Positions 15,901-57,143 of a DNA stretch of 64,000 nucleotides are shown here, piece by piece. The position numbers and the translations under genes are program-made. The number at the start of each line of letters is the position of its first letter. Positions within the stretch are counted from its first letter, which is position 1. Where the stretch lies: positions 90,727,052 to 90,791,051 of the forward strand of contig CM065297.1 of NCBI GenBank assembly GCA_032871835.1, in the 5' to 3' direction. Under the pieces are notes generated by a model. The model saw only the letters and a program-made list of their open reading frames with translations, was not told the origin of the DNA and made no database searches. Origin of the DNA: Dipteronia dyeriana. Taxonomy: Eukaryota; Streptophyta; Magnoliopsida; Sapindales; Sapindaceae.

Positions 15901-16029
15901 GAGAATAAATGCATAGTACTTGAGCATGTAGGTACTAATGATCAACTAGCGGATCTATTTACTAGACCCTTAGATGATACTCGATTCAAAACTCTTAGTA
16001 GATCTATTGGGATTTGCCTTATGGAGTGA
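12931..16029 (+). pseudogene. Copia-1 pol (protease, integrase, RT, RNase H)
   Basis: Order: protease WYLDSGCSRNMTGD (about 12980-13021, catalytic Asp kept); GAG-pre-integrase LWHERLGHMN; integrase core (MDLMGHM, VDDFSRYTW, QQNGVVERKN); linker with NVSYFHTFGSKCYILNDR; RT with WAL-type start [22 protein letters not shown] and YIDDIVFGS near 15088; RNase H with DADWAE and a C-terminal DIRHHFIRE. About ten stops and shifts break it, for example at 13402, 13810, 14688 and 15077. In RNase H the Glu-bearing SSAEAEY box is shifted out of frame near 15690. Confidence 0.88.
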
Positions 16030-16245
16030 TGGGCTTTTATATTTGACCCCAAAAGGGGAACTTAAGTAAATAGAGCTATTGTATACTTGTTGCATGCAAA
16101 AATTTGGAAATGTTTATTCTCCTTTATTAATTGCTTGAGTAGATTGGTTGCACTTATATCATATTCGATTATATTTTCTTCAATAAGTGTGAACTATGCT
16201 TTACTTACAATCCATGTCATATTTATGTTCAAACATGCATTTTTG

Positions 16246-23457: not shown

Positions 23458-24671
23458 TGAGTTTTGGTGTTTGACCCATATGGGGAGCTCAAGCAAAGAG
23501 AGCGAACTTGCATTCTAAAAAGTAAATAATTGTTCAATTTTAAGTCTCTTTAATTAATTGCTTGAGTATATTGGATGCATATATTATTACATGACTTTTT
23601 ATTCAATAAGTGTGCCTTTGACTTATTTGAAATGCATGTCTCATTTGTGTTCAAACATGTATTTTTTTACTAGAAAATTTGATTGGGAAGTACATTTGAT
23701 TGACCCAAAGTTTATCTCCATGTTTAAAAAAACTTGATCTTGACATGTTTATATTTTTATGCATGATGAATTTATTGAATGCTTATAAATGATTGCAAAT
23801 TTGTGTGAGAGTGACTTTTGAGACTTCAATCAATAAGGATATTGTATCTATTTCAAGGATTTCACAATCCAATAGTCTCTCTCTCTTTACGTGTTGAACA
23901 AGGCTACTATCATACGAGCATTTCACCCGAAAAAATCTAAAAGGGCACTCATGTCCTGTTTAACTTGTAAAGCTTGATAGTTGCTCTTATTTTTTTTGTT
24001 AAACTATATCTTGTTTTCCATTGAAAAATTGATGCAAATTGGTTTGACTTCTCTTGGAACATCATGTGCTATTTTCCTTTGCCAAATACCATGCTTTTGG
24101 AAGTTGATGTTGCACGTATTTCATTCAAGGCAATCTTTTCACACATGTTCCAATAAATAAAACTTCCATGAATTTCTCTCTCTTAATTAAATTGTATAAA
24201 GTTGTTGTATATGATTATGCATTTATATTGCAAATATCTCTCTTTGCTGCAGCACCTCGGTTGGGGAATACTCATTTACCTATCTTGTGACAAAAAAGGG
24301 GAGTAATGTTGGATTTATAATGTTGGATTTAGGGGGAGTTTGTGTTGCTTTTGCATATAAGAGGGAGTTGTATTTATGTTGTTAGCTTATGTGCATTGTT
24401 GATTGCATGATTACTTGTTTCTAATTCATGCAAATTGCACTTGTTTTTATTTTTTCTTGATCCCTCTCATACACTTGTCTTGGAAAGTGTAGTTCTTTAT
24501 TTTGTAGGGATGATCATTCTACAAGAGATGGAAGATTTGAAGATTTAGCTTTAGGTATCTCTTGTAGTATAGAATGTATTTGTTAACCTCTTGTTGTTTC
24601 TTATGTTTTGTTATGGGGATACTTTGTGAGTGAGTGAGTGGTTTTGTCACGAAATAGCCAAGGGAAAAGAT
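23458..24671 (+). other. Copia-2 3' untranslated region and polypurine tract
   Basis: AT-rich and without an env-like frame. A block is shared, inverted, with the same region of the minus-strand copy (52516-53723). The polypurine tract AGCCAAGGGAAAAGAT ends at 24671, directly before the LTR. Confidence 0.75.
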
Positions 24672-26206
24672 TGTAAGTTCTTCGGTGTTTGATTGGCTTA
24701 TTTCGTTAACAACCACATTTGGGATCAATATGTAAGGGTAGTTAAGGGCTTCATTGTTCGTAACCAAGCTCAAGCATCAAAGGTAAAATCACTTGCTTAA
24801 CCTTCATTGAAGAGGTATTAGTGCACACACACACTCATGCATTTTCCTTTAATTATCTTGCATGCATGATTATTTGCCATCTTGTGTGCCTTGTGTATCT
24901 TAATTCTTGTTTGAGTGTTGAATGCATTTTTTTTGTGCCTTTAAAAGAGGATTTTTTCCTCTGGTCCGCTGTTCAAACCGCTCTCTGTGCAATGCCTATG
25001 TCGCGGTCTGCACAACGGTGTTTACCATAGGCTGTAAGGTGTGGCTATCGCGGCCTGTGCATGTTGTATGCACCACGGTCTCCCAAGCGGAGCTTCACAG
25101 CGTTGCATGCTCACCAGACAGCGGTCTGTGCACTTGCATGCACAGCGGCCTACAGAGCGGTGTTGTCCAGGCAATGCACCGCTCTCTGTGCCGCGGTCTG
25201 GACACTTACCTGTACCGCGCTACAGCCAGCGGTCCTGATGGGATTTGGTTTCATTTCTTCCAAAACGATGCCACTTTGTGTAGGGCATCATATATATATG
25301 TTCTCTTCTCTTCTCTTTGGTTCTTAAGAGTCTAAGAACCCATTTTTGTGTGTTATAGCTTTTCCAGAGAGAGAGGGACTCCCAAACACTCATTTTTACT
25401 CAACCCAACTTCATCTCATGATCATTTAGCTTCATTTTAGGATCATCTAAGCATGGAGCATCATCTTCTTCTTGTCTAGGTAACTTCTACATGCTCTAGG
25501 CTTTATAGTTTCATTACAAAGACATGTATACCTAAGGTTTTAGTCCTTATTGCATATTAAATGCTTGTTTGTATGTTTAATTGCTTTTATGACATGCTTG
25601 TGTATTGATTGTTGGTTGAGATGCATTTAGTTGTGATAGCTAGAATTTAGGACGTTTTTACCTTTCTAGCTAATTCTTCTTGCCTTTGTATTTAGAACAT
25701 TGATATCTAGGATTTGCTTTAGTTGTCATTATTAATCCTATATAAACATGAATGTCTTGAGCTAGCATTTTTACATATAGAATATTCTTGCATATTCACT
25801 TAGGTTGCCATTATCTCTTCATTGTTGGTTAAGCTTGTGGCTATGTGATTAGTGCATAAGGTTGGTGATCCAAAATCACTATTAAAGCCCGTTAGGTAGA
25901 GTGAAAGGGTTATTAACTTGAGGGTTTGATAGGAGATCAACCTAGGTTGTAAACTTTCTCTCAATAGTGGATTTTAAGGATTGAGTGTGGCGCACTGAAC
26001 AGCCCGTGGTTTTTCCCATTTGGAGGGTTTCCACGTATATTTTGCTTGTTGTTATTATTTTATGTTTGTTGTCTTTTATTTGAACACTTAGTAGAATGGG
26101 ATATAATTGATAATATTGATTAATTCGTAAAATTAGTAATCTATCGAATTAAAACCTATTCACCCATATCTAGGTTATAGACACACACGTATTTAGGGAA
26201 CTTTCA
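24672..26206 (+). repeat. 3' LTR of Copia-2
   Basis: Starts TGTAAGTTC and ends ...GGGAACTTTCA, 1535 bp. It carries a GC-rich patch (24960-25240) with at least eight variants of GCGGTCTGYGCA and CACAGCGG, and the shared block GTGGCGCACTGAACAGCCCG near 25987. Its last 283 bp are repeated in the downstream tandem duplication. Confidence 0.88.
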
Positions 26207-31400: not shown

Positions 31401-32876
31401 ATGCAAGATAATCAAAATAAAGAATATTAACATTAGAAAACCCAGGTGGACTTCAACTGAACACTAATTAAGAGAAACCCATACAAACAATAAAGTCACA
31501 ACAGTACTTGGACATTGAAGTCAAGATTTAGAAGAGGTGCAGGCAAGTTGTACTTTTGCATTTGTGAGGGAATTACGGCCGTCTAAAAGGAGCTAGATTG
31601 TTTCCATTCTCACACAGCATTTACATTTTCCCAAAAGAAAAAAAAAACTGAGAGAAAGAAAAGGAATGAGGATCAAAAAGAGTATCAAAAGAGTGATAGA
31701 TGGAGATCTACAAAACCTACGTATTATAAAACTACCACAAATTGAAGATAATTTATAGAAATTGAACTCATCAACCATAAGTTTACAACAAACAAGAAAC
31801 TGTAAGAATTTACATTTCTTGTACTATAAGCAATCACTATAGAGATCCAAGGTCATTAATAAGCTCTAAATTTCATATTAAAATTAGAAAATGTAAGAAA
31901 AAATAATTTTAAAAGAACCCTGAAAAAATGTCTCAACTTCTATATTCAATACCTAATAAAAATGCTGAATGCTTTAAATGAGGGGTAAAAAGGAACCAAA
32001 AAAATGTAAATAGAAAGCACAATCAGAAAAGAAAATTAAAGAAAAAACAAATTGCATTCTTTCCATATGCATGGGAACATGGCACATGCCATTGTTAAGG
32101 GAAAAAGATGACAAATCAGAACTCTTGTGTATTCTCTCCACAGTTTATGAACCTGCCAACACAATATGCAAGCGCTAAGATCTTAAGTGCATTAAAAGAG
32201 GCCTTGGAGAATGTCAATAACCAATTAAAGATCTCAATATCCAATGAATTATGAATAGGCATGACATTTGGGGTTGCCACAGTGATTCTCTTGATGGAAA
32301 GGAACATTTCACATTGAACAAATCAAAAACAGAAATTACCTGAACAACCCCTCTGCCAGCTAGATCATTCTCTTCAATTCTATACTCATGCATAACCCAA
32401 TCTGTCCGGTCACCTCGTGGGGCTTTGCCTCGGTGAAAAACCAGCGTCTTTATCAACCCCACAGCCTCATTATTGTAATGAACAGGTCTATCCTTTCCTG
32501 TCGTTTTCCAATATCCAAACTCCGTCGCACGGTTCATTCTTGCCCCGTTGCTATATTTCTTCTCACACGGGCAAAAGAAATACCACTTCAGATCTCTACT
32601 TCTCATACATGACTTGTCTGAAGAATAGAAAAAAAGTGCATCCCAGTAAGAAAAACCAACATACAAAGTAAAGGTAATCCAAACCACAATTAGCAAAAAA
32701 CAGATAACGAGTTCTATACCTGGTAGATCCCAAGGAGCATACTTGTATATGTCAATCTCTGCAATAGCCTCAAAACAGAGTTTCTTACCCATAACCTTCC
32801 TCTTTAAATAGTACATGACCAATTCGACATCAGTTGGATGAAAACGAAATCCGGGAGGTAGTGATGTTTTCACCAT
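28443..32876 (-). CDS. NAC transcription factor, probably membrane-tethered (NTL) type, with two in-frame stops
   Basis: Five coding exons with GT-AG introns: 32876-32720, 32617-32340, 31293-30892, 29128-28921 and 28828-28443. Exons 1-3 give a full NAC DNA-binding domain ([92 protein letters not shown]), as in plant regulators that bind CACG-core promoters. Exons 3-4 are acidic, as activation regions often are. Exon 5 has a Cys-x2-Cys-Gly-Tyr motif and a hydrophobic helix of about 24 residues ([21 protein letters not shown]) before a short basic tail, the layout of membrane-held NACs. All joins keep frame for 477 codons, except TAA at 28924-28922 (end of exon 4) and TAG at 28706-28704. Either the gene makes a soluble truncated factor of about 358 residues, or it is a young pseudogene. 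Exon 5's acceptor is the least certain join. Confidence 0.82.
30269..30450. mobile_element. MITE with about 50-bp inverted ends (Mutator-type)
   Basis: Ends GAGTAATGCTAG and CTAGCATTACTC, with inverted similarity continuing through CTTCCCAAAT.../ATTTGGGAAGG. It is flanked by ATTGCCAAA and GTTGCCAAA, 9 bases with one mismatch, as expected of a Mutator-type target duplication. 182 bp, no coding capacity. It lies in intron 3 of the NAC gene. Confidence 0.8.
30511..30590 (-). mobile_element. tRNA-derived SINE-like fragment
   Basis: The minus strand reads GGTTGGCCTCGTGGTTAAGC, close to a Pol III A-box (TGGCNNAGTGG), followed by GTGGGGATTTCAACC and CATGGGGTTAATACACC where a B-box would lie. This phrase is typical of plant tRNA-derived SINE heads. 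The B-box is degraded and no clear tail or target duplication is seen. Confidence 0.4.
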
Positions 32877-39209: not shown

Positions 39210-40621
39210 TGATTAACACTGAAAAGTGTAAGTTTACTAAGGGATAATATCATCATTTTACACTTCTAATATGATTAATTCCCCAATTTAGACATAATTT
39301 CGTTCGCTCGCTTAAATAAATGTGTTGTGTAGTAATCAGTGTATTTTTCTTTGTATTTCAGAGGTAATTCGATCAATTCATAATTAAAGAAAAGTCAGAT
39401 GGCAAAACAAACATCATTTTCAAGTTTAGAACGTCAAAAACCTTAGGAAGGCCATGAAGGGTATTTTTATAATTTTGACTATTCACTGTTCACAGTTGAC
39501 TTCCACTGTTCCTAATGATGTGGCACATTCCTAATGAACCGAACTGCGAGTGCACCATACACGCGACTGCAGAGAATCACATTTTAGAAGTCGGTGCATT
39601 GTTCATAGTTGACTTTCTAGAAGATTATTGACCGATGACACGACATATTTCTATTGGCCTAAATTGTGAGTGCACCGTACACGTGCTGCAGATAATCATA
39701 TTCTAGAAGCCAGTGCACTGTTCACTATTGACTTTCACAGATGAGTTTACTGCTCATTGTCACCGTTCACTGTTCACTGCTCATTATTCACTTCTGACGT
39801 GGTGAAATCTGGACGCTCCATTCTAATTCATCCTATGGTCAATTTTCATCCGTATTTTGTATAAATAGGGGACCTCTCCCTCCTAATTTACATATTCTGA
39901 ATCCAAATCTGATATTAGATTTGTGAAATTCGCTCTCTTTTATTCTCAAATTCTCAGTTTAAATAAAATACCTATTTTCTAATTAAATTATATCTAGCTA
40001 ATTTCATATAGTTGGGGTCATGGGTGATACCGTTGGTATGGAAAATATGATCCAATTTTGGTAAGTTTATTATTTTTATGCTTTCTCCCCTCTGATCTTT
40101 TTGGAGTTTTTGACTCACTGTAGCATAGTGAGTACTTTTACCCATATTTATCAGAGAGTGGTTTCTTCCCTCTGATCTTTGTGGAGTTTTGACTCACTGT
40201 AGTCGGACAGATATTGTCTAGCACATTGAGTACTTTTGCCCATATTTATCAGAGAGTGTTTTATCCCCACTGATCTTTATGGAGTCTTGACTCACTGTGG
40301 ACAGACAGATGTTGTCAGACACAGTAGGTACTTTACATCATATCTATCAGTAGAGTGGACAAGGGAGTGGAAATTCCCTCCTTTAATCTGGATTAAATAT
40401 TAATTATTGAATCATATTCGAATTACCAACAGTGGATCCCTCAACCCCAATTTTAATTTAATTGATTTACGTTTTATAACAAGCTTAGTAATTAATCTAG
40501 ATAATTAATTCTACAAAGACAAGTGAACAACCTCTCTGTGGTTTGACCTGGTCTTACCGGTTAATTTATTACTTTGACACTCTTATACTTGGGAGTAGGA
40601 ACACTTCTTTAGGACGTGCCA
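39210..40621 (+). repeat. 5' LTR of the Athila-LOG element
   Basis: TGATTAACAC...GTGCCA, 1412 bp. The TATA box TATAAATAG lies at 39860-39868, with a CT-rich initiation region following. Three 80-100-bp repeats (TCTGATCTTT...GACTCACTGTAG...ATTTATCAGAGAGTG) occupy about 40085-40370; the first unit lacks about 19 bases that are present in the 3' LTR. Confidence 0.85.
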
Positions 40622-40642: not shown

Positions 40643-41169
40643 GGAGGTAAGTCCGCCTTTTCTGTGAAGAAGTAATTTCTTTTTAATTTTATTTTAGTTT
40701 TGCTAGTTTTTTTTCTATCTTCTTTGTTCTTATTTTGTATTCAGTTTTGCATCACTCATCTCAATCATAAACTTCATCTACTTAAAAAAAATTGCACTTG
40801 TAATCATTAATCACATTTTTGCATTTTAATCCTTCAACTTTTTATTTACATTTTAGCTTAGATCTAGTTTGTATTTGCATTTAGGTCATTTTACTTTTCA
40901 CTTTTGCAGATCAGTTCCCTGTCTCTCATATTTTCACTTTAATCCCTAAATTTATAGGTATTTGCATTTTCACCCCAACACTTGTGCATTTTTACATTTA
41001 CACCCCTAGAATTTTGCATCTTGTTATTTTTATCGCATTTTCTTTTATTTTCTTCATTTTTGTGTATTTCACCTCCATTAACCCTCATTAAATTTGCATG
41101 AGACGTTGGTCTTGAACATCTAGTGGTAGATTAATTAGGAGATCACAATCACCCACATTCACTAACAAC

Positions 41170-42770
41170 ATGGCTGAAAACCCACTTAGACATCCAACAG
41201 GAAACCAAGCCGAGAATTTTTTAGACAACCTTGACAGCATATCTCAACACAACAACCATTCGCCTTATGTTGACCATGACCAACACATTAACCAAAATCC
41301 ACCTCGAACTCTTGGAGACTACATGAACCCCACACGCACTGAAGCACCTTCATGCATAACTTTTCCACCAAATGCAACACACTTTAATTTTAAACCGGGA
41401 ATCATTCAACTTTTACCCAATTTTCACGGTCTTGAATCTGAAAACCCATATTTACATCTTAGGGAGTTTGAGGAAGTCTATAACACTTGCACCAACCAAA
41501 ATGTTAGCATGGATATAATCAGGCTTAAGTTTTTCCCTTTTTCCTTAAAAGATAAAGCTAAAACTTGGTTACAAAACCTTAGGTCAGGATCAATTCAAAC
41601 TTGGAATGATATGTAACAACAGTTCTTAAAGAAATTTTTCCAACCTCATATAACAAACTCTCTTAAGAGGCAAATCACTTCATTTGCCCAAAAACCTGAC
41701 ACTTTACCAATATTGGGATAGGTTCAAAGAGTTGTTAAATGTCTGTCCACATTATGGTTTTGAAACATAGAGGATAGTGTCATATTTTTATGAGGGACTC
41801 ACACCCCAAAGTAGACAAGTCATTGAAATGGTGTGTAATGGGGAGTTCAGTGATAAAAATCCTGAAGAAGCACTTGACTATCTTGACTATCTTGACCATA
41901 TCACTAAAAATACTCAAAATTGAGACACCATTGGTTCTTATGAGTTCATGAGCAAACCACAACCATCTCCATCTAGTGGAGGCATTTACAATCTAAGGGA
42001 AGACCATGACCTTCAAGCTAGATTTGCATCCCTAGCTAGGAAAGTCGAAGCTTTAGAAACTAAAAAGAGTTAACATATAAAATCTGTACAAGAAATTGCA
42101 TGCCATGTATGTGATTCTGATGATCATATCACTCATAGTTGCCCAACTTTGCTAGCCATAAAAGATTGCCTTCGTGAACAAACCAATGTTTTGCACACTT
42201 TCAACAAGCCAAATTCCAACCCATATTCACAAACCTACAATCCTGGTTGGAGAAATCCCCCAAATTTTAGTTGGAGAAACAATAATCAAGCCTAGTCTTC
42301 ACAAACACCAGGTTTATCACATCCATAAACACACCAGAATTTCCAAAACCCTCAAGGTTATGCGTCTTATGTCCTACCATCTAGGAAAAACCTTGAAGAC
42401 ATTTTGCACTCATTCATTGAGAAGCAAAAAGCCATTAACAGCCAAACAACATAAACCTTGACAGATGTTAAAGATACTTTGGCAAATATTGCTTCTACAC
42501 TCACCACACACGAAAAAGGAAATTTTTCATCTCAACCATAACCAAATCCCAAGAGTCAGTCAAGTTCCTATGATAATAACCAATGCCCAGATCAAGTCAA
42601 ATCAATTATCACTCTTCGTAGTGGTAAGGTAATCGAAAAACCTATTCTTGAATCTGATAAAAATGATGATGAGTCATTTTCCAAGGGTAAGAAAGGGGGT
42701 GATGAAACCACTATTGACGAAGAAATAATTGAATCCCCACCTACACTCTCATATCCTCATGCTCTTAAAA
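41170..42770 (+). pseudogene. Athila-LOG gag
   Basis: Start at 41170 (MAENPLRHPTGNQ). The gag core has HLREFEEVYNTC, RLKFFPFSLKDKAKTWL and IQTWNDM up to TAA 41614, then continues in frame with QQFLKKFF. A CCHC knuckle CHVCDSDDHITHSC lies at about 42098-42139, and a proline/asparagine-rich tail follows. At least five stops stand where Gln or Arg is expected, and a small shift occurs before 42839. It would form the element's particle shell. Confidence 0.85.
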
Positions 42771-43900
42771 ATTCACAGAAATCGAAGTATCCCCCAGAGA
42801 TTTTTGAAATTTTCAAACAAGTAAAGATCAATATCCCTTTGTTGGACGCAATCAAACAGGTACCTTCCTATGCCAAATTTTTGAAGGATCTGTGTACTGT
42901 GAAAAAGAAGCATCAGGTAAGAAAGAAAGCTTTTATGGCTGAACAGGTAAGTTCCATTCTTTCCAATAAAAATGTTTTGAAATATAAAGATCCTGGCTGT
43001 CCCACTATTTCCTGCATAATTAGTAATTGTAAAATTGAGCATGCTTTACTTGACCTAGGTGCTAGTGTAAATTTGCTCTCATACTCAGTTTATCAGCGAC
43101 TTAAACTTGGTGAGTTAAAGTCGACTTCAACCACACTTTGTCTTGCTGATAGGTCAATTAAAATACCGAAAGGAATAGTGGAAGATGTGTTAGTACAAGT
43201 CGATAAATTTATATACCCAGTAGAATTTATTGTATTGGAAACACAACATGTTGTTAATGAGCACAAATCAATTCCTGTTATATTGGGCTGACCATTTTTA
43301 GCTATTGCTAATGCCTTGATTAATTGCAGAAATGGAATAATGAGCATGTCTTTTGGAAATATAGAAATTAAGCTTAATGTTTTTGACATGTCTAAGGATC
43401 CATTTGATGATGAAAATGAAGATGAAGATGTAGACATTATTGAAACCATTGTTGAAGATCATGTTCAAAAGGATTCTTTTAACTCATCTGAAGTTTGTTT
43501 GTTCAATTCACCTGAGTCAAGCATGCATTCACATCTTGATGATTGATTGCAGGTTGTCGAAGAAGAAGGAGACACTTCAGATTTTGAAGAATTGGAACAG
43601 AAAGATGACGTGCTAGAAGAAAAAGCACCTCAATTGGATTTGAAACCCTTACCAGAAGAACTTAAATATTCTTACCTTAGAGACGACCAGACCTACCCAG
43701 TGGTAATCTCTTCCAACCTCACAGAAGAGCAAGAAGGTAAGTTGTTACATGTTTTAAAGAAAAATAAGAATGCAATTGGTTGGACTTTGAAAGATTTGAA
43801 AGGTATTAACCCATTGATTAGTTCACATCGAATAAATTTAGAGGAAAATGCTAAAACATATCGATAACCCCAAAGAAGACTTAACCCACACATGAAAGAA
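42771..43900 (+). pseudogene. Athila-LOG protease region
   Basis: KQVPSYAKFLKDLC and KKHQVRKKAF lead to the Athila-type protease motif HALLDLGASVNLL, with the Asp codon at 43052-43054, and on to SIPVILG, stop (TGA 43289, where Arg is expected) and PFLAIANALI. An acidic linker (DDENEDEDVDIIE) and the RT approach TPVVISSNLTEEQE-like block follow. Frame is kept from 42839 to 43867. Confidence 0.82.
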
Positions 43901-44039
43901 GTTGTCAAGACCGAAGTCCTTAAATTACTTGACGTGAGAATTATCTACCATATCTCTGATAGTAAGTGGGTGAGTCCTACACAAGTTGTGCCAAAAAAAT
44001 CTAGAATCACTGTTGTTAAAAATGAAAAGGTGAGTAATT

Positions 44040-46535
44040 CCAACTCGTGTTCCATCTAGTTGGCACATGTGCATTGATTATAGAAAATTAAATGATGCCA
44101 CTAGAAAATATCATTTTCCCCTTCCATTCCTTGACCAGATTTTAGAAAGAGTAGCAGGATATTTCTATTACTGCTTTCTTGATGGGTATTCTGGATACTA
44201 TCAAATTCTCATTGCATTAGAAGACCAAGAAAAGACCACATTCACATGTCCCTTTGGAACCTTTGTATTTAGAAGAATGTCATTTGGTTTGTGTAATGCC
44301 CCGGCCATATTTCAATGATGCATGCTAAGCATTTTTAGTGATATGATTGAACATTGTTTAGAGGTCTTTATGGATGATTTAACTATGTTTGAGAATTCTT
44401 TTAATAATTGTCTTAATAACTTGGATAGAGTCTTGAAACGTTGCATAGAAAAAGGACTTGCGCTTAACTGGGAAAAGTGTCATTATATGACCACGTCTGG
44501 AATTGTTTTGGGTCATATTGTGTCATCAAAAAGTATCGAGGTTGATAAGGCAAAAATTGAAGTCATTTCAAAGTTACCATCACCACAAACAGTCAAAGAT
44601 GTGCGGTCATTTTTAGGCCATGCAGGATTTTATAGGAGGTTTATTAAAGATTTCAGTGTCATATCTAAACCACTTTGTAACCTCTTATTAAAAGATGCAA
44701 AATTTGAATGGACACAAGAGTGTGGAGGATCTTTTAAAAAGATAGTTGACCTTTTAACATCTACTCCTATCATGCAATCCCCCGATTGGTCCTTGCCTTT
44801 TGAATTGATGTGTGATGTGAGTGATTTTGTTGTTGGAGCTGTCTTAGGACAGAGAAGAAAAGGTAAGCCTTTTGTGATTTATTACGCAAGTAAAACTTTG
44901 AATAGTGCATAAATGAATTACACCACCATCGAGAAAGAATTACTTACTGTGATATTTGCATTGGATAAATTTCGGTCATACTTGATTGGCGCTTCAACCA
45001 TTGTTTTTACTGATCACGCTGCTTTGAAGTATTTAATGTCTAAACAGAATGCAAAGCCAAGATCGATTCGCTGGATTTTGTTGCTACAAGAATTCAATCT
45101 CACATTCAAGGATAAAAAGGGTGCTAAAAATGTCGTTGCAGACCATTTATCACGACTCACCGCTGAGTCGTCATTTGATAAAGCACCAATCAATGATTCT
45201 TTTCCTGATGATCTTTTATTCTCTATCACAATTTTGCCTTGGTATGATGACATTGCTAATTATCTTGCGACAGGAATGATGCCACTCGATTGGAATGCAC
45301 AGAACAAAAAGAAATTTTTGACCGAGGTAAAACGTTTTTACTGAAATGACCCTTACTTATTCAAGTATTGTTCTGATCAAATTGTTCGACGGTGTATTCC
45401 AGGCAATGAGGTAAGTAGTGTCATTGAATTTTGTCATTCTGAAGCATGTGGTGGTCATTTTTCGTTAAAGAAAATGGCTGCAAAGATCTTACAGTGTGGA
45501 TTTTATTGGCTCACCTTGTTTAAAGACGCACATGCATTCTGTAAAACCTGTGAAAATTGTCAAAAGTTAGGATCCATTTCTAAGCGAAACATGATGCCTT
45601 TAAACCCCATTCTTGTCATTGAAATATTTGATTGTTGGGGCATTGATTTTATGGGTCCATTTCCACCGTCATTTGGATTTTTGTACATTTTGGTTTCCAT
45701 TGATTATGTGTTAAAATGGGTCGAGGCAATTCCTTGTCGAAATAATGATCACAAAATAGTGATTAAGTTTTTAAAGGAAAATCTTTTGAGTCGATTTGGA
45801 ATCCCTCGAGCCATTATCAATGATGGAGGCAAACACTTTTGTAACAAACCTTTTGAGTCTTTAATGAAGAAATATGGAGTCACACATAAAATTGCCACAC
45901 CATACCACCCTTAAACAAGTGGTCAAGTTGAGTTAGCAAATAGGGAGATAAAACATATCTTGCAAAAAACGGTTAACCCTGATCGAAAAGATTGGTCTCT
46001 TAGACTAAATGATGCACTTTGAGCTTACCGCACTGCATTCAAAACATCTTTGGGTATGTCTCCTTATCGTTTAGTTTATGGAAAACCTTGTCATTTACCT
46101 GTTGAACTTGAGAAAAAAGCTTATTGGGCCATTAAATCTTTCAATTCTAACCTAAATGATGCTGGTGAATTGCGCAAGTTGCAAATAAATGAAATCGAAG
46201 AATTAAGAAATGATGCATATGAAAATGCAAAAATTCTTAAAGAAAAATCTAAAACCTTTCATGACAGACGAATTTTAAGAAGATCATTTGAAGTTGGTCA
46301 AAAGGTTTTGCTTTATAATTCTCGACTTCATTTATTTCCTGGCAAATTGAAATCAAAATGGAGTGGTCCATTTGTTGTGAAACACGTGTATCCATATGGT
46401 GCCCTTGACATTGCGAATCCTAGGAATGATAATGTGTTTAAAGTAAATAGACAACGTGTGAACCCATTCTTAGAAAATAACGATTTTCAAAAAGACTCTG
46501 CCGTCCTTTCTGACTCTTGTTACAAAGGCGAGTAA
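44040..46535 (+). pseudogene. Athila-LOG pol (RT, RNase H, integrase)
   Basis: One frame of about 830 codons with five stops: TGA 44319, TAA 44910, TGA 45343, TAA 45912 and TGA 46020, each one C-to-T or G-to-A step from the Arg, Gln, Trp, Gln and Trp usual in the family. RT: MCIDYRKLNDATRK, FLDGYSGYYQI, FMDD (about 44370). RNase H: CDVSDFVVGAVLGQ, YYASKTLNSA, FTDHAALKYL. Integrase: HHCC region (CKTCENCQK), core DFMGPFP with D-D-E residues, then AYWAIK and a C-terminal chromatin-side region ([11 protein letters not shown]). The approach at 44025-44060 contains a frameshift. Confidence 0.9.
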
Positions 46536-46753: not shown

Positions 46754-47374
46754 ATGGACGAAATTTTTACAAACCTACGAAAACATTTTCCATCGTTGCC
46801 CCAAAATGCTCTGAAAAAGATTTACAAAGCACGTTCCGAAAGATTACGCTTACTGATGATAAACAAAATTCTTGTTGAAATTCGCTAGTTGATCGAAGCT
46901 AAGGTACATCTAGCAGGTGAGTCTGCTGATTCATTTATATCTTACATGCCTGGTTTTGGAAGAAGTAACCTTGCAAAAAAATGAAGAGCTAAGAAGTTAG
47001 GGGTTACTTGTCACAAATGTGCACGTACAACTTGCAACACACGTTGTCGTTCTTTAGGAATGGTGTCTAATAATAGAGAAGATAAAAATTTATTCATTAG
47101 GCATGGTTTGCTTAGGGAGTCATTGGATAATATCCTAACGACTCTTGATGCACATCCTAGTGGATATGTACAAATGGCAATTGACTGATTATAGCCACAA
47201 TTTAAAAAAAAACATGCATAATATAGTCTTGGGAATCTGACTTTAAAAGACCCTGTTTACCAATTTATAAGAAAATTGGATGGAAAGTATATCCCCGACC
47301 CATAGAGGGCGTTGAAGCCGTTTTTGTTTGTAAAACCAGTGGAAGATGTGAGCCATAATGACAACCACCAGTAA
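46754..47374 (+). pseudogene. Unrecognised 206-codon frame downstream of pol, with a Cys cluster
   Basis: From the ATG at 46754 (MDEIFTNLRKHFPSLPQ) one frame runs to TAA 47372 and is interrupted by six stops (46886, 46982, 47186, 47192 and two more), all Gln- or Arg-like changes. Features: a helical basic N-terminal third, YMPGFGRSNLAKK, a Cys-x2-Cys-x4-Cys-x3-Cys cluster (CHKCARTTCNTRC), a polar stretch, and near the end DPVYQFIRKLDGKYIPDP. I do not recognise the family. No signal peptide or membrane segment is seen, so it does not look like an envelope gene. Preservation of a single frame argues that it once encoded a protein. Confidence 0.6.
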
Positions 47375-47532
47375 ATATCCTTTTATTTTTATTATCTTTT
47401 TCCTTCCGCATTTAATTTCTTTTGTAATTATTGCTATTTACTTTTGATTTTTGAACCATTTAGATATAATATCATTGAAAAATACGCCGTCCTATACATA
47501 TAGGTGTATCATTGTGTTACCTTTTCGGGATC

Positions 47533-47540
47533 TATAAATA
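47533..47540 (+). promoter_or_regulatory. TATA-like box ahead of the LOG copy
   Basis: TATAAATA, 74 bases before the LOG start codon at 47614 and followed by an A/C-rich leader with no ATG between. This is promoter-like spacing inside the retrotransposon. Confidence 0.45.
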
Positions 47541-47613
47541 CAAGCATTTGTTTTCCTTTTTTTGCTTCAAAGCACTCATAAACATTCAAAAGAAAAATTC
47601 AGAGAGTGCATTA

Positions 47614-48253
47614 ATGGTGTCACCTTCAACTAAACGATTCATAAACATTTATGTATTTGGTGGCACTAATTATGGGAAATACAGAGAGTTTGTTAAGGCT
47701 GCAACTTAACTTGGTAAAGTTTTGGCTGAGCGAAAAATACACCTAGTGTATGGAGGAGGTAACTTGGGATTAATTAGGGTGTGTTTCACGAGCTGATCGA
47801 GACGGAGGTAGTCATGTTCTGGGTATTGTCCCAAAACCTATAGCCGCATCAGACATCATCGGAAAGACAAACGGTGTAGAGCTAAATGTTTCAGGTATTC
47901 CTAAAAGATTGACTGCTATGTTACATCATGCTGATGCATTTATAGCTTTGCCAGATGGTTTTAGAACCTTAGAATAAATCTTTACAATGGCATTTTGGGC
48001 GCAACTACACATCCATGAGAAACCAATCGGTTTGTTGAATGTTAATAAATTTTATGATGTTTTGCTTTCATTTCTTTATCATGCTCAGAAAAATTATTAC
48101 ATTCCACATTCAATCCGGAAAATCTTTATCTCTGCTTCAAGTCCTCATGAGCTGATTGACCTGTTATAAGCTTTTAATTATGACCCAGATCCCTCAACCT
48201 CCAAAATAGAAGAGAACAAGAAACACAGAATTGATCTGAATCTCAGTTTATGA
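47614..48253 (+). pseudogene. LOG-like: LONELY GUY-type cytokinin riboside monophosphate phosphoribohydrolase, intronless captured copy
   Basis: LOG enzymes release active cytokinin bases from their ribotides in the cytosol. This copy starts at 47614 (MVSPSTKRFINIYVFGGTN), then LGKVLAERKIHLVYGGGNLGLI, a one-base shift near 47780, SHVLGIVPKPI, SGIPKRLTAM, ADAFIALPDGFRTLE, FWAQLHIHEKPIGLLNV, and a C-terminal tail to TGA 48251. About 213 codons, the usual LOG length. The YGGG nucleotide-binding motif is intact; the PGGxGTxxE motif reads PDGFRTLE then stop (47951-47977), with both Gly changes being G-to-A. Three stops in all (47707, 47975, 48167). Plant LOG genes have several introns and none is seen here, so capture of a spliced transcript is likely. 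Confidence 0.85.
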
Positions 48254-49460: not shown

Positions 49461-50484
49461 TGATTAACACTGAAAAATGTATGTTTACTAAGGGATATTA
49501 TCATCATTTTACACTTTCAATATGATTAATTCCCCAATTTAGACATAATTTCGTTCGCTCGTTTAAATAAATGTGTTGTGTAGTAATCAGTGTATTTTTC
49601 TTTGTATTTCAGAGGTAATTCAATCAATTCAGAATTAAGGAGAAGTCAGATGGTAAAATAAACATAGTTTTCAAGTTTAGAACGTTAAAAACCTTAGGAA
49701 GGCCACGAAGGGCATTTTTATAATTTGGATTATTCACTGTTCATAGTTGACTTTCACTGTTCCTGATGATGTGACACATTCCTATTGGACCGAACTGCGA
49801 ATACACCATACACGCGACTGCAGAGAATCATATTCTAGAAGTTGGTGCACTGTTCATTGTTGACTTTCAAGAAGATTATTGACCGATGATGCAACACATT
49901 TCTATTGACCTAAATTGTGAGTGCACTGTACACATGCTGCAGAGAATCATACTCTAGAAGCCGGTGCACTGTTCACTATTGACTTTCATGGATGCGTTTA
50001 CTGTTCACTGTCACTGTTCATTATTCACTTATGACGTGGTGAAATCTGGATGCTCCATTCTAATTCATCCTATGGTCAATTTTCATCCTTATTTTGTATA
50101 AATAGGGGACCTCTCCCCCCTAATTTGCATATTCTGAATCCAAATCTGATATTAGATTTGTGAAATTCTCTCTCTTTTATTCTCAAATTCTCAGTTTAAA
50201 TAAAATACCTATTTTCTAATTAAATTATGTATGGCTAATTTCATATTGCTGGGGTCATGGGTGATACTGTTGGTATGGAAAATATGATCCAATTTTGGTA
50301 AGTTTATTATTTTTATGCTTTCTCCTCTCTGATCTTTATGGAGTTTTTGACTCACTGTAGATAGACATATATTGTCTAGCATAGTGAGTACTTTTACCCA
50401 TATTTATCAGAGAGTGGTTTCTCCCCTCTGATCTTTGTGGAGTTATGACTCACTGTAGTCAGACAAATATTATCTAGCACAGTG
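49461..50484 (+). repeat. 3' LTR of the Athila-LOG element, truncated
   Basis: Matches 39210-40236 of the 5' LTR with scattered differences, including the TATA region (50097-50105), then stops at CTAGCACAGTG. The last 390 bp, with the LTR end and target duplication, are gone. Confidence 0.87.
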
Positions 50485-50953
50485 GTAGTGGTGGTGGCTG
50501 TATCGGAAATGGTAGGGGATGTGACAGTGGTGGTGGTGGTTGTCTTGACATTAAATCAAACATGAGCCTAGAAACATTTCCTAGGTTTAAAATCTAGATT
50601 CTTAGGCTTTAAACTTCCTAGGCTTAGTCCCTTCTTATTAGCCCCAATACTGACCACGTGTATCGTGTGTGACACGTGTACATAAACCTAGGAAAGATTA
50701 TACAGGCCTAGAATAAATTATTTTAGGACTAGAAACTGTTCCCGAGCCTTACAGTTTTCCACCAAAAACAGAAATGTGGGGGCCAGACACTAGTCTCGAC
50801 GATCTGCACCATCCAACAATGAAGGGAAATCAACGGAAATATATACGTTAGTTTTCAATATCATCTGACGCTCGAACAAGTACATCCTTACCCGCTACAC
50901 TAGATATAACAAAAAACCTTTTCAACTATGATTACATGCCAATTTATAAAAAT
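50485..50953. other. MULE piece between the two nested elements
   Basis: Begins with a GGTGGTGGT-rich stretch, which could encode a Gly-rich tail like that of some mudrA proteins (speculative). It continues with CCTAGG/AGGCCT repeats (50565-50750) matching 37045-38400. The last bases, GATTACATGCCAATTTATAAAAAT, join directly to 60505 once the Copia element is removed. Confidence 0.6.
50949..50953. other. Target-site duplication, left copy (AAAAT)
   Basis: AAAAT here and at 60500-60504 flank the Copia-3 element exactly outside its TG/CA ends. Confidence 0.9.
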
Positions 50954-52515
50954 TGAAATTCCCTACAAAGTGTGTGTCTATAACCTAGAGGGGATGGGGG
51001 GGGGGGGGGGGGGGTGAATAGGTTTTAATTCAATAGATTACCACTTTTGCAAATTAATCAATATTAACGATTCTACCACAATGTTCAAATAAAAGACAAC
51101 AAATAAAAGACAACAAATATAAAACAATAACAACACGCAATGTACACGTGGAAACCCTCAGAATGGGAAAAACCATGGGCTGTTTAGAGCGCCACCCTTG
51201 ATCCTCAAAATCCACTATTGAGTAAAAGTTTACAACTTATGTTGACATCTCGTCTAACCCTCCAGTTACTAACCCTTTCACTCTACCCAACGGGCCTTAA
51301 TAGTGATTTTGGCTCACTAGCCTTGTGCACTAACCACTTAACCACAAGCTAACTCAACAATGAAGAGATAATGGCAACCTAAGTGAATATGCAAGAATAT
51401 TCAATATGCAAAATTGCTAGGTCAAGACATTAATGCTTATCTAGGATAAATAATGACAATTAAAGCAAACCCTAGATATCAATGTTCTAAATGCAAAGGC
51501 AAGAAGAATTAGCTAGAAGGGTAAAATCGTCCTAAATGCTAGCTATCACAAATTAATGTATCTTAACCAACAATCAATACACAAGCATGTCATAAAAGCA
51601 ATTAAACATACAAGCAAGCAATTAATAAACAATAAATACTAAAACCTTAGGTATACATGTCTTAGTAATGAAAACATAAAGTTTAGAACATGTAGAGAAT
51701 ATCTAGTTATGAACACATAAGAAATCCATGCTTGAAAGATACTTGATGATTTGGATTTTAAGGATTGTTGAGTAAAAATGGTTTCTTGGATCTTCTCTCT
51801 CTAAAGAACCTTATCTCTCTCTCAAAAATAGGTTAGAAAGCTCTAAAAACGAATTGGGAAGAAGATGGTATATTTATATGAAGCCCAAAGTGAAGCTACA
51901 TCGTTTTGGCAAAAACAGGCCAAAAGACGCAATGTGTGCTGGTGTCTGGGCACTGATCGTGTAGTGCACGACCAGCGACAACCCACTAGACAAGTTGCGT
52001 TGGTTTCTGTGCGCTGGTTGAGTATCGCACGACCAGCGACAACCCACTGGATAAGTTACGCTGGTGAGGTGCGTATGACGACCAGCGCACCACCAGCGAC
52101 AAGCTACTGGAAAGCTGCACTGGTGTTGGCACTGGTGGGGACGCTGCTCGAGTGGCACACAGCTTACCACCTTCACCCACACACACAATACATGCAAGAG
52201 AAATGAGGTGAAGGGAATGTATCATAATGCCTAACATGACATGACATTTTAATCACAAGATGCAATCAATTCAAACAAGCAAGAGATAACAAAATTAGGC
52301 ACACAATCAAGACAATAAGCACAAATGCAAAGTGATATAAAACATGCATAAGAGTGAGTGTGTGCACTAAATCTCTTTAATGAAGGTTAAACAAATGTTT
52401 TTACCTTTGAAGCTTGAAAGAGGACTTGAGCAATGATGACCTAACCACCCTTACATATTAAACCCCAAATGTGGTTGTCAACGAAATGAGCCAATCAAAA
52501 ATCAAAGAACTTACA
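50954..52515 (-). repeat. 3' LTR of Copia-3
   Basis: TGAAATTCC...CTTACA on the plus strand (TGTAAG...TTTCA in element sense), 1562 bp. It has a G run at 50997-51014, a TATA-like ATATAAATATA on the minus strand near 51870-51880, and a GC-rich patch with GCACGACCAGCGACAACCCA repeats (51955-52160). Confidence 0.93.
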
Positions 52516-53723
52516 ATCTCCCCCTTTGGCTATTTCGTGACAAAACCACCACTCACACTTCATCCTCACAAAAGAAAAACAACAGACAGAGGTCAACAAC
52601 AATTTCTACCTTACAAAGAGATGCCTAATAAACTACATATTTAAGCCATCCATCTCTAGTAGAATCAACATCCCTACGAAACAGAACAATTACACTTTCC
52701 AAGACAAGTGTATAAGAGAGATCAAAATAAATAAACACAAACACAATTTACATGAATTAGAAACAAGAAACATACAAACAACAATGCACAAACTCCCCCT
52801 AGATAGGTCAATCAGTCAATCTCCCCTTAAAACATGCCAATATCAACTCCCTCTAAATCCAATACTACTCCCCTTTTTTGTCACAAGATAGGCAAATGAG
52901 TATTCCCCAACCGGTACGCTGTAGCAAAGAGAGATATTTACAATGTAATTGCATAATCATATACAACAACTTTATGCAGGTTAATTAAGAGAGAGAGAAA
53001 AATTCATGGAAGTTTTATGGATTTGAATATGTGCGAAAGAATGTCTTGAATGAAATACATGCAACATCAACTCCCAAAAGCATGGTATTTGGCAAAGGAA
53101 AATAACACATGAGGTTCCAAAAGAAGTCAAACCAATTTGCACCAAATTGACAATGGAAAACAAGATATAGTTCAACCAAAAACATAAGAGCAACTATCAA
53201 ACTTTACAAGTTGAACAAGACATGAGCGACTATTGCGCCCTATTAGATTTTTTTGGGCAAGATGCTCGTATGATAGTAGCCTTGTTCAATAAGTAAAGAG
53301 ACAGACTATTGGATTGTGGAATCCTTGAAATGGATACAATATCCTTATTGAAAGAAGTCTCAAAAGTCAATTGCACACATATTTGCAATCATTTTGTAAG
53401 TATTCAATAAATTCATCATGCATATCACTTTAAGCATGTCAAGATCAAGTTTTCACAAACATGGAGATAAACTTTGGGTCAATCAAATGTACTTCCCAAT
53501 CAAATTTTCTAGTCCAAAATGCATGTTTGAACACAAATGAGACATGCATTTCAAATAAGGAAAAAACACACTTATTGAATAAAAAGACATATAATAATAT
53601 ATGCATCCAAGATACTCAAACAATTAATTAAATAGCATAAAATTGAACAATTATTTGCTTATTAAAATGCAAGTTCGCTCTCTTTGCTTGAGCTCCCCAT
53701 ATGGGGTCAACCATCAAAACCCA
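52516..53723 (-). other. Copia-3 3' untranslated region with polypurine tract
   Basis: The polypurine tract, minus strand GCCAAAGGGGGAGAT, adjoins the LTR at 52516-52530. The rest is AT-rich and collinear (inverted) with 23458-24671. No env-like frame is seen. Confidence 0.75.
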
Positions 53724-56700
53724 TCAATGCATATGACAAATCCCAATAGACCTACTAAGAGATTTAAACTTAGTTGAATCTAATGGTTTTGTAAACAAAT
53801 CCGCTAATTGATCATTTGTGCCCACATGTTCAAGTGCAATGCATTTGCTCTCAACTAGCTCCCTAATGATATGATGTCTAATGTCAATATGCTAAGTTCT
53901 AGAATGTTGGACATGATTTTTTGAAATATTGATGGCACTTATGTTATCACAATAAAGAGTTAGAGTACCTTGCTTTAAGCCATAATCCACAAGCATTTGC
54001 TTCATCCAAAGGAGTTGTGTGCAAGCACTCCCAACTGCTATGTACTCGGCCTCGGCTGTGGATAATGAGATGGAATTTTGCTTCTTGCAAAACCATGACA
54101 CTAGATTGTTCCCCAGGAAGAAGCAACCACCCGATGTACTCTTCCTATCATCACAATTACCTGCCCAATCTGCATCATTAAAGCCAACTAAATTAGCATT
54201 AGTGTCAAAAGAGTACCATATCTCATAGTTGGATGTCCCATTCATATATCGAATGATTCTCTTCACAGAGAAGATATGGGATTCTTTGGGATTGGCTTGG
54301 TACCTAGCACACACACCAACACTAAAAGCCATATCGGGCCTACTAGCAATCAAGTATAACAAGCTCCCTATCATGCCACGATATAGACTTTGATCCACAC
54401 TTTTTCCACTAGCGTCCTTGCTAAGTTTCAAAGTGTTACTCATTGGTGTGTCACAATGTTTGGCATTCTCAAGGCCAAACTTCTTCACTAGGTTCCTGGC
54501 ATACTTAGCTTGGGATATGAAGATCTCATCATGCATTTGCTTTATTTGCAAGCCTAGGAAGTAATTTAGTTCACCAACCATGCTAATTCAAACTCATGAG
54601 TCATCACATCAACAAATTGTTGAACTTTCAAGTTGTTGGTGGAACCAAAAACGATGTAATCAATATAAATTTGAGCTATGAATAACTCATCTTTAGTGCA
54701 CTTGATGAACAAAGTCTTGTCAACACTACTTGTAGAATAGCCATTGCCAACAAGATAAAGAGTGAGACGCTCATACCAAGCCCTCGGTGCTTGTTTCTAC
54801 CCATATAGCACCTTCTTGAGGCGATAAACATGATGGGGGTGGTGTGGATCCACAAACCCCTTAGGTTGCTTAACAAACACTCCCTCTTTCAAGAAGCCAT
54901 TTAGGAAGGCACTCTTAACATCCATTTGATGTAATTTAAACTTGTGCACATAAGAAATGGATAAGATAAGCCTAATGGACTCTAAACGGGCGACGGGAGC
55001 AAAATTCTACTCAAAGTTGATACCCTCAATTTGAGAGTATCCTTGTGCAACAAGTCTAGCTATGTTCCGTACAATGTTGCCATCCTCATCTGATTTGTTC
55101 CTATAGACCCACTTGGTGCCTATGGCATTTGTGTTCTTAGGCCTAGGAACTAGAGTCCAAACCTCATTTCTTTCAAATTGGTTTAGCTCTTCTTGTATGG
55201 CAAGAACCCAAAACTCATCACTTAAAGCTTCATCTACCTTTTGGGTTTAATTTGAGAGGTGTAGCAAGTGTAACTAATTTGATTTGCTAATCGATGTCTA
55301 GTCCTCACACCCTCATTCACATTTCCAAGAATATCACTCTTGTTGTGGAGATGCCTAACCCAAGGAGCGGGTTCCTTAGAGTCCAAAGTAGGATCTCTAT
55401 TAAGAGATTGAGTGACCACTTTTTCAAACTTTGATTTTTCACCACTAGAAATCTCATCAATCTTCACCAATGGAGTATCATCAACCACACTAATCTCCTC
55501 ATCATGGTTACTAATCTTAGGCCTACAATCATCTATGACCATATTAGATGATTCCATAACACTTCGTGTCTTCAAATTAAAAACTCTATAGGCCTTACTA
55601 TTTAGGGAATAGCCAATGAAAATCCCCTCATCACTCTTAGCATCAAACTTGCCAAGTTGATGACGGCCATTTAGAATGTAGCACTTGCTTCCAAATTAGT
55701 GGAAGTAGCTAACATTTGGCTTCCTACCCTTCCACAATTCATAGGAGGTTTGCCTAGTCCCGGGCCTAAGAAAAACCCTATTGCCTATATAACAAGCCGT
55801 ATGGACAGCTTCAGCCCAAAGATTCATAGGCACATTGTTGATATGCAACATCACACGGGCCATCTCTTGGAGGACTCTATTCTTCCTCTCTACTACCCCA
55901 TTTTGTTGAGGAGTTCGAGAATCTGAGAACTCATGGGAAATGCCAAGACTATCATAAAAGTTTTCAAAGTTAACATTTTCAAATTCTCTCACATGATCAC
56001 TCATAATTCTCTTGATGCATTTTATGTGAGAATCCTTCTCATTTTGAATTTTAGTGCAAAGCATTTTAAAAGTTTCAAACGTTTCAGATTTTTCTCTAAG
56101 AAAGTAAGTCCAAGTAAATTTAGAAAAATCATCCACACACACAAAAATTTATCTCTTGCCACCGAGACTCTCGGTTTGCATGGGACCCATAAGGTCCATA
56201 TGAAGAAGCTCTAATGGCCTCTTAGTGGCAAGATACTTACTCTTCTTATGCACACTCTTAGTTTGCTTTCTTTGTTGACAAGGTCCATAAACTCCCTCAG
56301 TCTTATTTCCAAACTTAGGAAGGCCTCTCACAACTTTCAACCTCTCAAGAACTTTCAAGTCTTTGAAATTCATATGACCTAACCTTTGATGCTATAATTC
56401 AACTTGATCACAACTAGACAAATTGCAAGATACCATTAGAATCAAGACAATAACAATTGTCACTTGATCTCTTGCCTTTCAATAGAACATGTCAATTTTC
56501 TTTTAAAATAGAGCAATCAACTTTTCCAAACAAAATCGAAAGCCCTTAATCACTTAAATGTGACATGCTAATGAGATTGACTTGCAAGCCATCTACATAG
56601 AGAGCATTAGGCAAGGAGGGCAAATCGGGGATGGAAATGTTTCATTTTCCTAAAACCTTCTTACGTGAACCATCACCAAAGGTGACAAATCCACCAATCC

Positions 56701-57143
56701 TCCATCACAAGAGTTTCAAATAAACTCTTGTTTCCGGTCATATGCCTAGAACAACCACTATCAAGGTACCAAGTGTTAGAGGCTTTCGCCTTCAACGCCA
56801 CTTGGGCTATATGGCAAACATACTCATTTGTTCTAATCCACTTAGTAGCAACATTGTCATTTCTAGGAGCCTTGGGTTCATTGGCTCTAAAATTTCTAGG
56901 TGCATGCATTTTGGCTCTTCTAAGCATATTCTTCTTAATCATGCTTTCAAAACGACATAACTTAATAAATTTAAAACAATTCGGCCTTATGTGACATTCA
57001 ACACCACAATAATGACAAATGAGAGTAAAGTAAGAATTCATACCATATTCTTGTGAAAGCATGGTAGACTTCCCTCTCCTTTGAGTTGTCCTTTGATGTT
57101 GATCTGAATCTCTTCCTTGAAAGAACCTTTGTGATTGAGCCAA
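53724..57143 (-). pseudogene. Copia-3 pol
   Basis: Starts in the gag-pol overlap with the second knuckle CHYCGVECHIRPNC. Protease WYLDSGCSRHMTGN keeps its Asp. Then MNFKDLKVLERL, integrase core (VDDFSKFTW, QQNGVVERKN), NVSYFH and a linker; RT with YIDYIVFGS-type wording near 54650, where the family has YIDD; and RNase H with DADWAGNCDD, STAEAEYIA and LYCDNISAINI. Stop TAG at 53892 before HIDIRHH; pol ends at 53724. A shift near 56680 separates protease from integrase. This is the best preserved of the three Copia pols. Confidence 0.88.

Follow-up and report, generated by a model that had tools for sequence, protein, structure and literature searches.

A captured LOG-type gene with a changed prenyl pocket and an EAR-like tail in a Ty3/gypsy retrotransposon family of Dipteronia dyeriana

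The 64,000-nucleotide stretch of Dipteronia dyeriana DNA analysed here (hereafter the window; C3:90727052-90791051) holds an LTR retrotransposon that carries a gene of the LOG family. Self-BLAST paired a 5' LTR at 39210–40232, whose first letters are TGATTAAC, with a 3' LTR at 49461–50487; both lie on the + strand, as do all parts of the element between them. These are a gag piece at 41116–41613 (Retrotrans_gag, E 1.1e-4, 22.7 bits, below the Pfam cut-off of 24.1), a protease piece at 42542–43288 (Asp_protease_2, E 0.0015, also below the Pfam cut-off), reverse transcriptase and RNase H in pieces at 44034–45341 (RVT_1, E 3e-11 and 1e-7; RT_RNaseH, E 1e-18), and integrase with the end of pol, again in pieces, at 45345–46535 (rve, E 9e-14; Integrase_H2C2, E 6e-12). 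By its open reading frames, the last open pol piece ends at 46535, and two accessory frames, each broken, occupy the interval from there to the 3' LTR: ORF2 (46754–47185; stops at 46886, 46982 and 47186) and the LOG gene (47614–48253), which was recognized by reading frame, Pfam, structure and protein relatives.

The two LTRs are 90.4% identical by BLAST, with a K2P distance of 0.075 over 1009 aligned sites. At 1.3e-8 or 7e-9 substitutions per site per year, rates known from other plants, the distance corresponds to an element age of about 2.9 or 5.3 million years, which deamination has probably inflated. No clear target duplication was seen at the element ends. The end of the 5' LTR appears partly duplicated (40159–40330 against 50316–50487, 85% by self-BLAST), forming a partial repeat up to 40330.

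Pfam matches give the order reverse transcriptase–RNase H–integrase between the LTRs, which is that of the gypsy type, and the LOG-carrying element is a member of Ty3/gypsy. The element is likely Athila-like. Athila-type primer binding sites have the core TGGCGCC, which is absent across 39–51 kb of the window, including the sequence after the 5' LTR. The available text of PMC6317226 gives a second, archaeal-type RNase H as the mark of the Tat lineage; neither this domain nor a chromodomain was among the Pfam matches of 10 frames from the broken window copy.

ORF2 is open over 183 codons in three of the 39 other copies described below (L045, L019 and L033), where its product has a run of basic residues and a motif rich in Cys, which in one of them reads CHKCARTTCNTRC. 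All three open copies matched Carla_C4 (E 0.0012, 0.0057 and 0.0012) and two matched Viral_NABP (E 0.0028 and 0.0075), both of them viral nucleic-acid-binding families; these matches fall below the Pfam cut-offs, and ORF2 has a similarly weak match to an unrelated bacterial family. Elsewhere in the window we recognized by eye similar Copia-like retroelement copies (GAG pre-integrase/reverse transcriptase) at 12936–16243, 22132–24845 and 52340–56818, in both orientations, and, on the - strand at 32214–32876, a frame resembling a piece of a NAC transcription factor gene, broken by intron-like sequence.

The LOG frame of the window copy runs from an ATG at 47614 to a terminal stop at 48251–48253. 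It is interrupted by in-frame stops at 47707, 47975 and 48167 and by one frame change near 47774–47783, and its C-terminal linker is five codons short of that in other genome copies. With the stops read as X, its translation matched PF03641 (E 3.6e-26) and PF18306 (E 1.5e-8). Among solved structures, Arabidopsis LOG3 matched best (2a33, E 3.3e-44), with query residues 7–187 collinear; the first 31 codons alone gave no solved-structure match. Among the 120 listed of its 733 protein relatives, the closest are proteins from Dipteronia dyeriana (Sapindaceae), and two scans of viral contigs yielded no relatives. An identity outside the LOG family is ruled out by the Pfam, 2a33 and protein-relative matches. 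A preliminary description of this locus, which had read it as a full-length, intron-free LOG sequence between pol and the 3' LTR with three stops and one shift, is borne out in all these respects, except that the start it gave (47512) lies about 100 bases ahead of the ATG.

The YGGG motif of the window copy is undamaged, whereas its PGGxGTxxE region is damaged and reads PDGFRTLE*. The catalytic Arg is retained, and the positions of the prenyl-pocket His, Lys and Glu are occupied by Pro, Leu and Thr. The protein ends, immediately before the stop, in the tail KKHRIDLNLSL (48218–48253, + strand), a basic run followed by an LxLxL pattern, with IDLNLSL at the very terminus. This copy of the gene is itself dead.

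When the genome (914 Mb, 78 contigs) was searched with a 742-base query from the window, 1022 first-look candidates were returned, and all of the best 40, which were scored, aligned over 738–742 of the 742 bases; leaving out the window copy itself, the remaining 39 did so at 90–91%. We read the surroundings of all 39 in 5.5 kb stretches, past whose cut some misses may lie: pol was found upstream of LOG in 34 (in three of these the longest match was only 68 bases), ORF2 in 37 and an LTR downstream of LOG in 37. The order pol–ORF2–LOG–LTR is common to most copies read. Fourteen of the 39 have an open 217-codon LOG frame and 25 do not. A host LOG3 protein (P0123) used as a genome query gave 786 candidates, and each of the best 150, which were scored, matched as a single piece at 41–49% identity, 56 of them (by hand count) with no internal stop. 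We picked 20 further short stretches for the absence of a stop in these P0123 matches: 12 proved open over 217 codons, one over 220 and two over 212 with a shifted end, and five were shorter. Later tests drew on a set of 26 open 217-codon copies from this genome.

A window copy that is intron-free and decayed could in principle be a single processed LOG pseudogene that landed in one element. The 39 further near-identical copies, nearly all at the same position in the element, rule this out, and the chance that it is nonetheless correct is negligible; the LOG-like matches in the genome are, moreover, merely 41–49% identical to host LOG3. With 150 scored LOG-like matches and 39 other copies, most of them in the same context, a chance processed pseudogene does not explain the locus, and the earlier proposal that the element carries the gene stands. 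A 50-residue query from the end of host LOG3 found two matches in the genome, the better covering 31 residues at 90% identity, which fits an intron-split host gene.

We compared two protein samples. The element-type sample comprised 177 proteins (the best 120 of the 733 relatives and 57 new ones listed), and most of the unnamed proteins (jgi/ena/lgn) were assigned to it by clade, without genomic context. The host sample comprised the best 120 of 7998 AtLOG3 relatives and leans towards LOG1/3-like proteins, so that other host groups may be under-sampled. Tree 1 (56 rows picked from the two lists of 120) split 19 host proteins, including AtLOG8, from 37 others at 100/100 with a stem of 0.77, and tree 2 (54 rows, with Reevesia and Paulownia) recovered the same split at 100/100 with a stem of 0.75. 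By these trees, the element-type LOGs form a single clade, separate from the sampled host LOGs. Within it, the window copy groups with Dipteronia (100/96, three rows, tree 1), and this group then joins Citrus (96/85 in tree 1, 93/87 in tree 2). Element sequence also appears in database gene models: Xanthoceras P0002 holds 48 residues like the protease-side region of the element (52%, E 3e-11), and Dipteronia P0005 reads into the element LTR (83%, E 2e-7). Paulownia, an asterid, falls within the element-type clade, which may reflect old descent or transfer between plants.

In Corynebacterium glutamicum LOG, Arg99 and Glu122 are the catalytic residues, and the residues of the prenyl-binding pocket include His97, Lys100 and Glu125 (PMC4979012, in the text available). 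Restricting the alignment to proteins of 205–270 aa left 159 of the 177 in the element-type sample and 115 of the 120 hosts. All 115 host proteins keep each of seven sites (Met96, His97, Arg99, Lys100, Glu122, Glu125 and Trp129). The element-type proteins mostly keep the catalytic residues (Arg99 in 150/159, Glu122 in 147/159), Trp129 (158/159) and Met96 (140/159), and PGGxGTxxE together with the catalytic Arg and Glu is present at the level of the clade. Their prenyl pocket has His97 in 46/159, Lys100 in 10/159 and Glu125 in 10/159. The complete His/Lys/Glu set, and indeed all seven sites, is intact in the same ten proteins, six from Xanthoceras and four unnamed. In the 149 element-type proteins that lack Lys100, which we term derived, Glu125 is present in none, His97 in 36 and both catalytic residues in 128. 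As read from these alignments, the derived LOGs mostly retain the hydrolytic centre and the phosphate-binding motif and have an altered side-chain pocket. Four Citrus-type rows (P0008, P0074, P0095 and P0114) have lost Glu122 and still have the C-terminal tail.

Because LOG enzymes make active cytokinin, the preliminary description had suggested that an element carrying one could once have altered host growth or meristem state. The element LOG might still activate cytokinin in meristem or germ-line precursor cells, where more division would mean more element spread, a reading helped by the LOG fold, by the mostly retained catalytic Arg and Glu and by the ten of 159 proteins with a whole pocket. 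The other 149 lack the pocket Lys and Glu, and 113 of those also lack the His; even the catalytic Glu is gone in the Citrus-type rows. Loss of the pocket Lys and Glu makes cytokinin production by the carried gene doubtful, and such production is not supported for the clade of the window copy, in which Lys100 and Glu125 are gone and His97 mostly so. We regard cytokinin activation as unlikely, and plain cytokinin supply was set aside as the best reading on the loss of pocket residues in 149/159.

The C-terminal tail of the window copy recurs across the clade. LxLxL occurs within the last 14 residues of 137 of the 177 element-type proteins and in none of the 120 host LOGs, whether in the last 14 residues or the last 40. 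It is present in 134 of the 146 derived proteins of 205–235 aa; when the last 30 residues of each of the 146 were shuffled, it arose in a mean of 4.1 and at most 11. The motif is nearly always preceded by a K/R-rich run, with two adjacent basic residues shortly before it in 132 of these derived proteins, as in KKRKLDLTLRL, KKLRLDLSLSL and KKRRIDLNLSL. Among the 134, which were selected for LxLxL, a leucine stands at -7 in 120 and a lysine at -10 in 126, and the residues directly ahead of the basic run are variable. Thirteen of the 21 derived rows with a changed Arg99 or Glu122 have the strict motif. The tail is conserved across several orders, including Populus, Malvaceae, Citrus, Dipteronia and the asterid Paulownia, and 25 of the 26 open 217-codon copies of the D. 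dyeriana genome end in LxLxL.

We read the basic run before LxLxL as a putative nuclear signal. A structure model of the element-type protein P0009 has a mean pLDDT of 85 and a body that superposes on AtLOG3 with an rmsd of 1.0 Å (TM 0.95 against 2a33, by target length), in keeping with the Pfam and 2a33 matches of the window copy; residues 197–213 and 215–217 fall below 50, and the tail is disordered in this model. The EAR motif has two defining forms, LxLxL and DLNxxP (PMC9956375 and PMC6283911, in the text available), and the element-type tails carry the first of these, the window copy as IDLNLSL. In sequence, the tail pattern thus resembles a nuclear signal followed by an EAR repression motif. 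Possession of an EAR pattern does not guarantee that a co-repressor is bound: the effector PopP2 has an EAR motif, yet a yeast two-hybrid screen gave no known co-repressor (PMC5539180, in the portion available).

In tree 2, with hosts as outgroup, the earliest element branches (Xanthoceras, P0120 and P0243) have kept the pocket and have no LxLxL. P0259, which has both pocket and tail, branches next. The branch above the basal group has support of 99/91, and the other 38 rows, all with a changed pocket, are held together at 99/89; two of these 38 (P0030 and P0264) are without the motif, and one LDIDL end was scored as a variant. This branching suggests that the tail was gained first and the pocket lost later, though P0259 is the sole intermediate row and the basal proteins that lack a tail might have been shortened. 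The Xanthoceras model P0002, which belongs to the basal type by its sites, is fused to element sequence, and so the basal type is also element-borne.

The preliminary description had proposed Ka/Ks across copies as a check. Run within this genome, the comparison gave a pN/pS for LOG of 0.67 (bootstrap 0.46–1.02, 14 copies), which speaks neither for nor against constraint; within-family tests of selection are weak here because the family is young (26 open copies differ pairwise by a median of 5%). By part, pN/pS was 0.69 for the core, 0.48 for the linker and 0.90 for the tail (14 copies), so within the family the strongest constraint does not fall on the tail. Among 40 copies, private changes fitted the neutral expectation and shared changes had fewer replacements (p 0.094); shared-versus-private comparisons at three cuts in the 26 copies gave p 0.78, 0.69 and 0.10. 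Shared changes were often C to T or G to A. This near-neutral variation, and the many broken copies (25 of 39 with no open 217-codon frame), would suit a passenger gene, useless to the element and retained by chance since its capture. Such a passenger would not be expected to keep open frames, the catalytic pair and the tail over several plant orders despite long branches, and we consider this explanation quite improbable. The better sign of constraint appears to be that frame, catalytic pair and tail have all survived across plant orders, although this is no codon test.

A LOG gene without introns thus occupies a place between pol and the 3' LTR in a Ty3/gypsy family and has been copied along with it. 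By sequence, the derived protein keeps the fold, has lost the Lys and Glu, and mostly the His, of its prenyl pocket and ends in the basic and LxLxL tail. We propose that this tail may act as a nuclear signal and as an EAR motif binding TOPLESS-type co-repressors. A nuclear, nucleotide-binding protein with a LOG fold could then act on host transcription or chromatin by tethering or titrating co-repressors, in the cells that express the element, instead of supplying free cytokinin; any remaining catalysis would probably concern a substrate other than a prenylated AMP. We put a nuclear, co-repressor-binding LOG-fold protein of this kind, rather than a cytokinin supplier, at somewhat short of an even chance. 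The catalytic pair in 128 of the 149 derived proteins, which points to an ongoing enzymatic role, counts against it, as do the 12 of 146 derived proteins that lack a strict LxLxL. Those same catalytic residues, together with the mostly kept phosphate- and ribose-binding residues and the changed base-side pocket, would agree with a protein that hydrolyses or senses some other nucleotide, such as AMP, and whose tail would serve only for nuclear placement. That alternative leaves the near-constant spacing of the terminal leucines unexplained and sits poorly with the Citrus-type rows that have lost the catalytic Glu; we think it improbable. For the co-repressor-binding protein that we prefer, a wider history can be offered tentatively, as possible but rather unlikely in full: in a retrotransposon lineage of rosids and at least one asterid, a captured cytokinin enzyme would have become a nuclear, EAR-tailed, TOPLESS-engaging adaptor through gain of the tail, loss of the pocket and then, in the Citrus type, loss of the catalytic Glu.

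Few retrotransposons have captured host enzymes, and what an element gains from one is seldom known; in this case the path from host enzyme to element protein can be followed stepwise, through tail, pocket and catalysis. LOG-like database proteins from Populus, Citrus, Dipteronia, Xanthoceras and Malvaceae that fall in the element-type clade call for a check before any count of cytokinin genes includes them. Five of these, P0014, P0054 and P0084 (Populus), P0008 (Citrus) and P0047 (Diplodiscus), bear the name LOGL10 or cytokinin phosphoribohydrolase or resemble proteins so named; by clade or ending, they and similar entries are probably transposon genes.

Steinbauerova et al. 2011 reportedly named two Athila-like elements as similar to LOGL4. 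A paper that cites Steinbauerova et al. 2011 and ties YgdH to LOG reports a YgdH domain in the consensus sequences of LTR retrotransposons from two Citrus species and, when no filter was applied, from Populus trichocarpa (PMC9289625, in the portion available). The capture as such is therefore not new. The tail and the pocket change are unmentioned in the available text of that paper on LOG elements, and among the papers listed on LOG/YgdH and retrotransposons, of which one states the capture, no description of them in element LOGs was found. A search for EAR, TOPLESS or LxLxL with retrotransposons or LOG, judged by titles and the openings of abstracts, likewise gave none among the papers listed; PMC7264820 and PMC6317226 cover extra frames, and in their available text the terms cytokinin, YgdH and lysine decarboxylase are absent. 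What appears to be new here, and was not found described, is the separation of the clade, the change of the pocket and the basic and LxLxL tail.

The Citrus and Populus LOG elements, as far as the available text of PMC9289625 describes them, are likewise Ty3/gypsy elements with an extra LOG-type gene, and in our trees the Citrus and Populus proteins belong to the same clade as the window copy. Beyond them, the present data add Dipteronia as a host genus, and database proteins add Xanthoceras, Diplodiscus, Reevesia and Paulownia. The same text describes orchid Gypsy elements bearing AlkB, which also have a captured host enzyme as an extra frame of a Ty3/gypsy element; the enzyme differs, and for AlkB activity was demonstrated in vitro. 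With EAR repressors (PMC9956375 and PMC6283911, in the text available) the element LOG shares LxLxL, placed behind a basic run at the extreme C-terminus; unlike them, this putative repressor would bear the motif on a LOG fold, with no DNA-binding domain seen. With plant LOG enzymes (AtLOG3, 2a33; AtLOG8, 1ydh) it shares the fold, PGGxGTxxE and the catalytic Arg and Glu, and it differs from them in the replacement of the pocket Lys, Glu and mostly His, in its tail, in having no introns and in being borne by an element.
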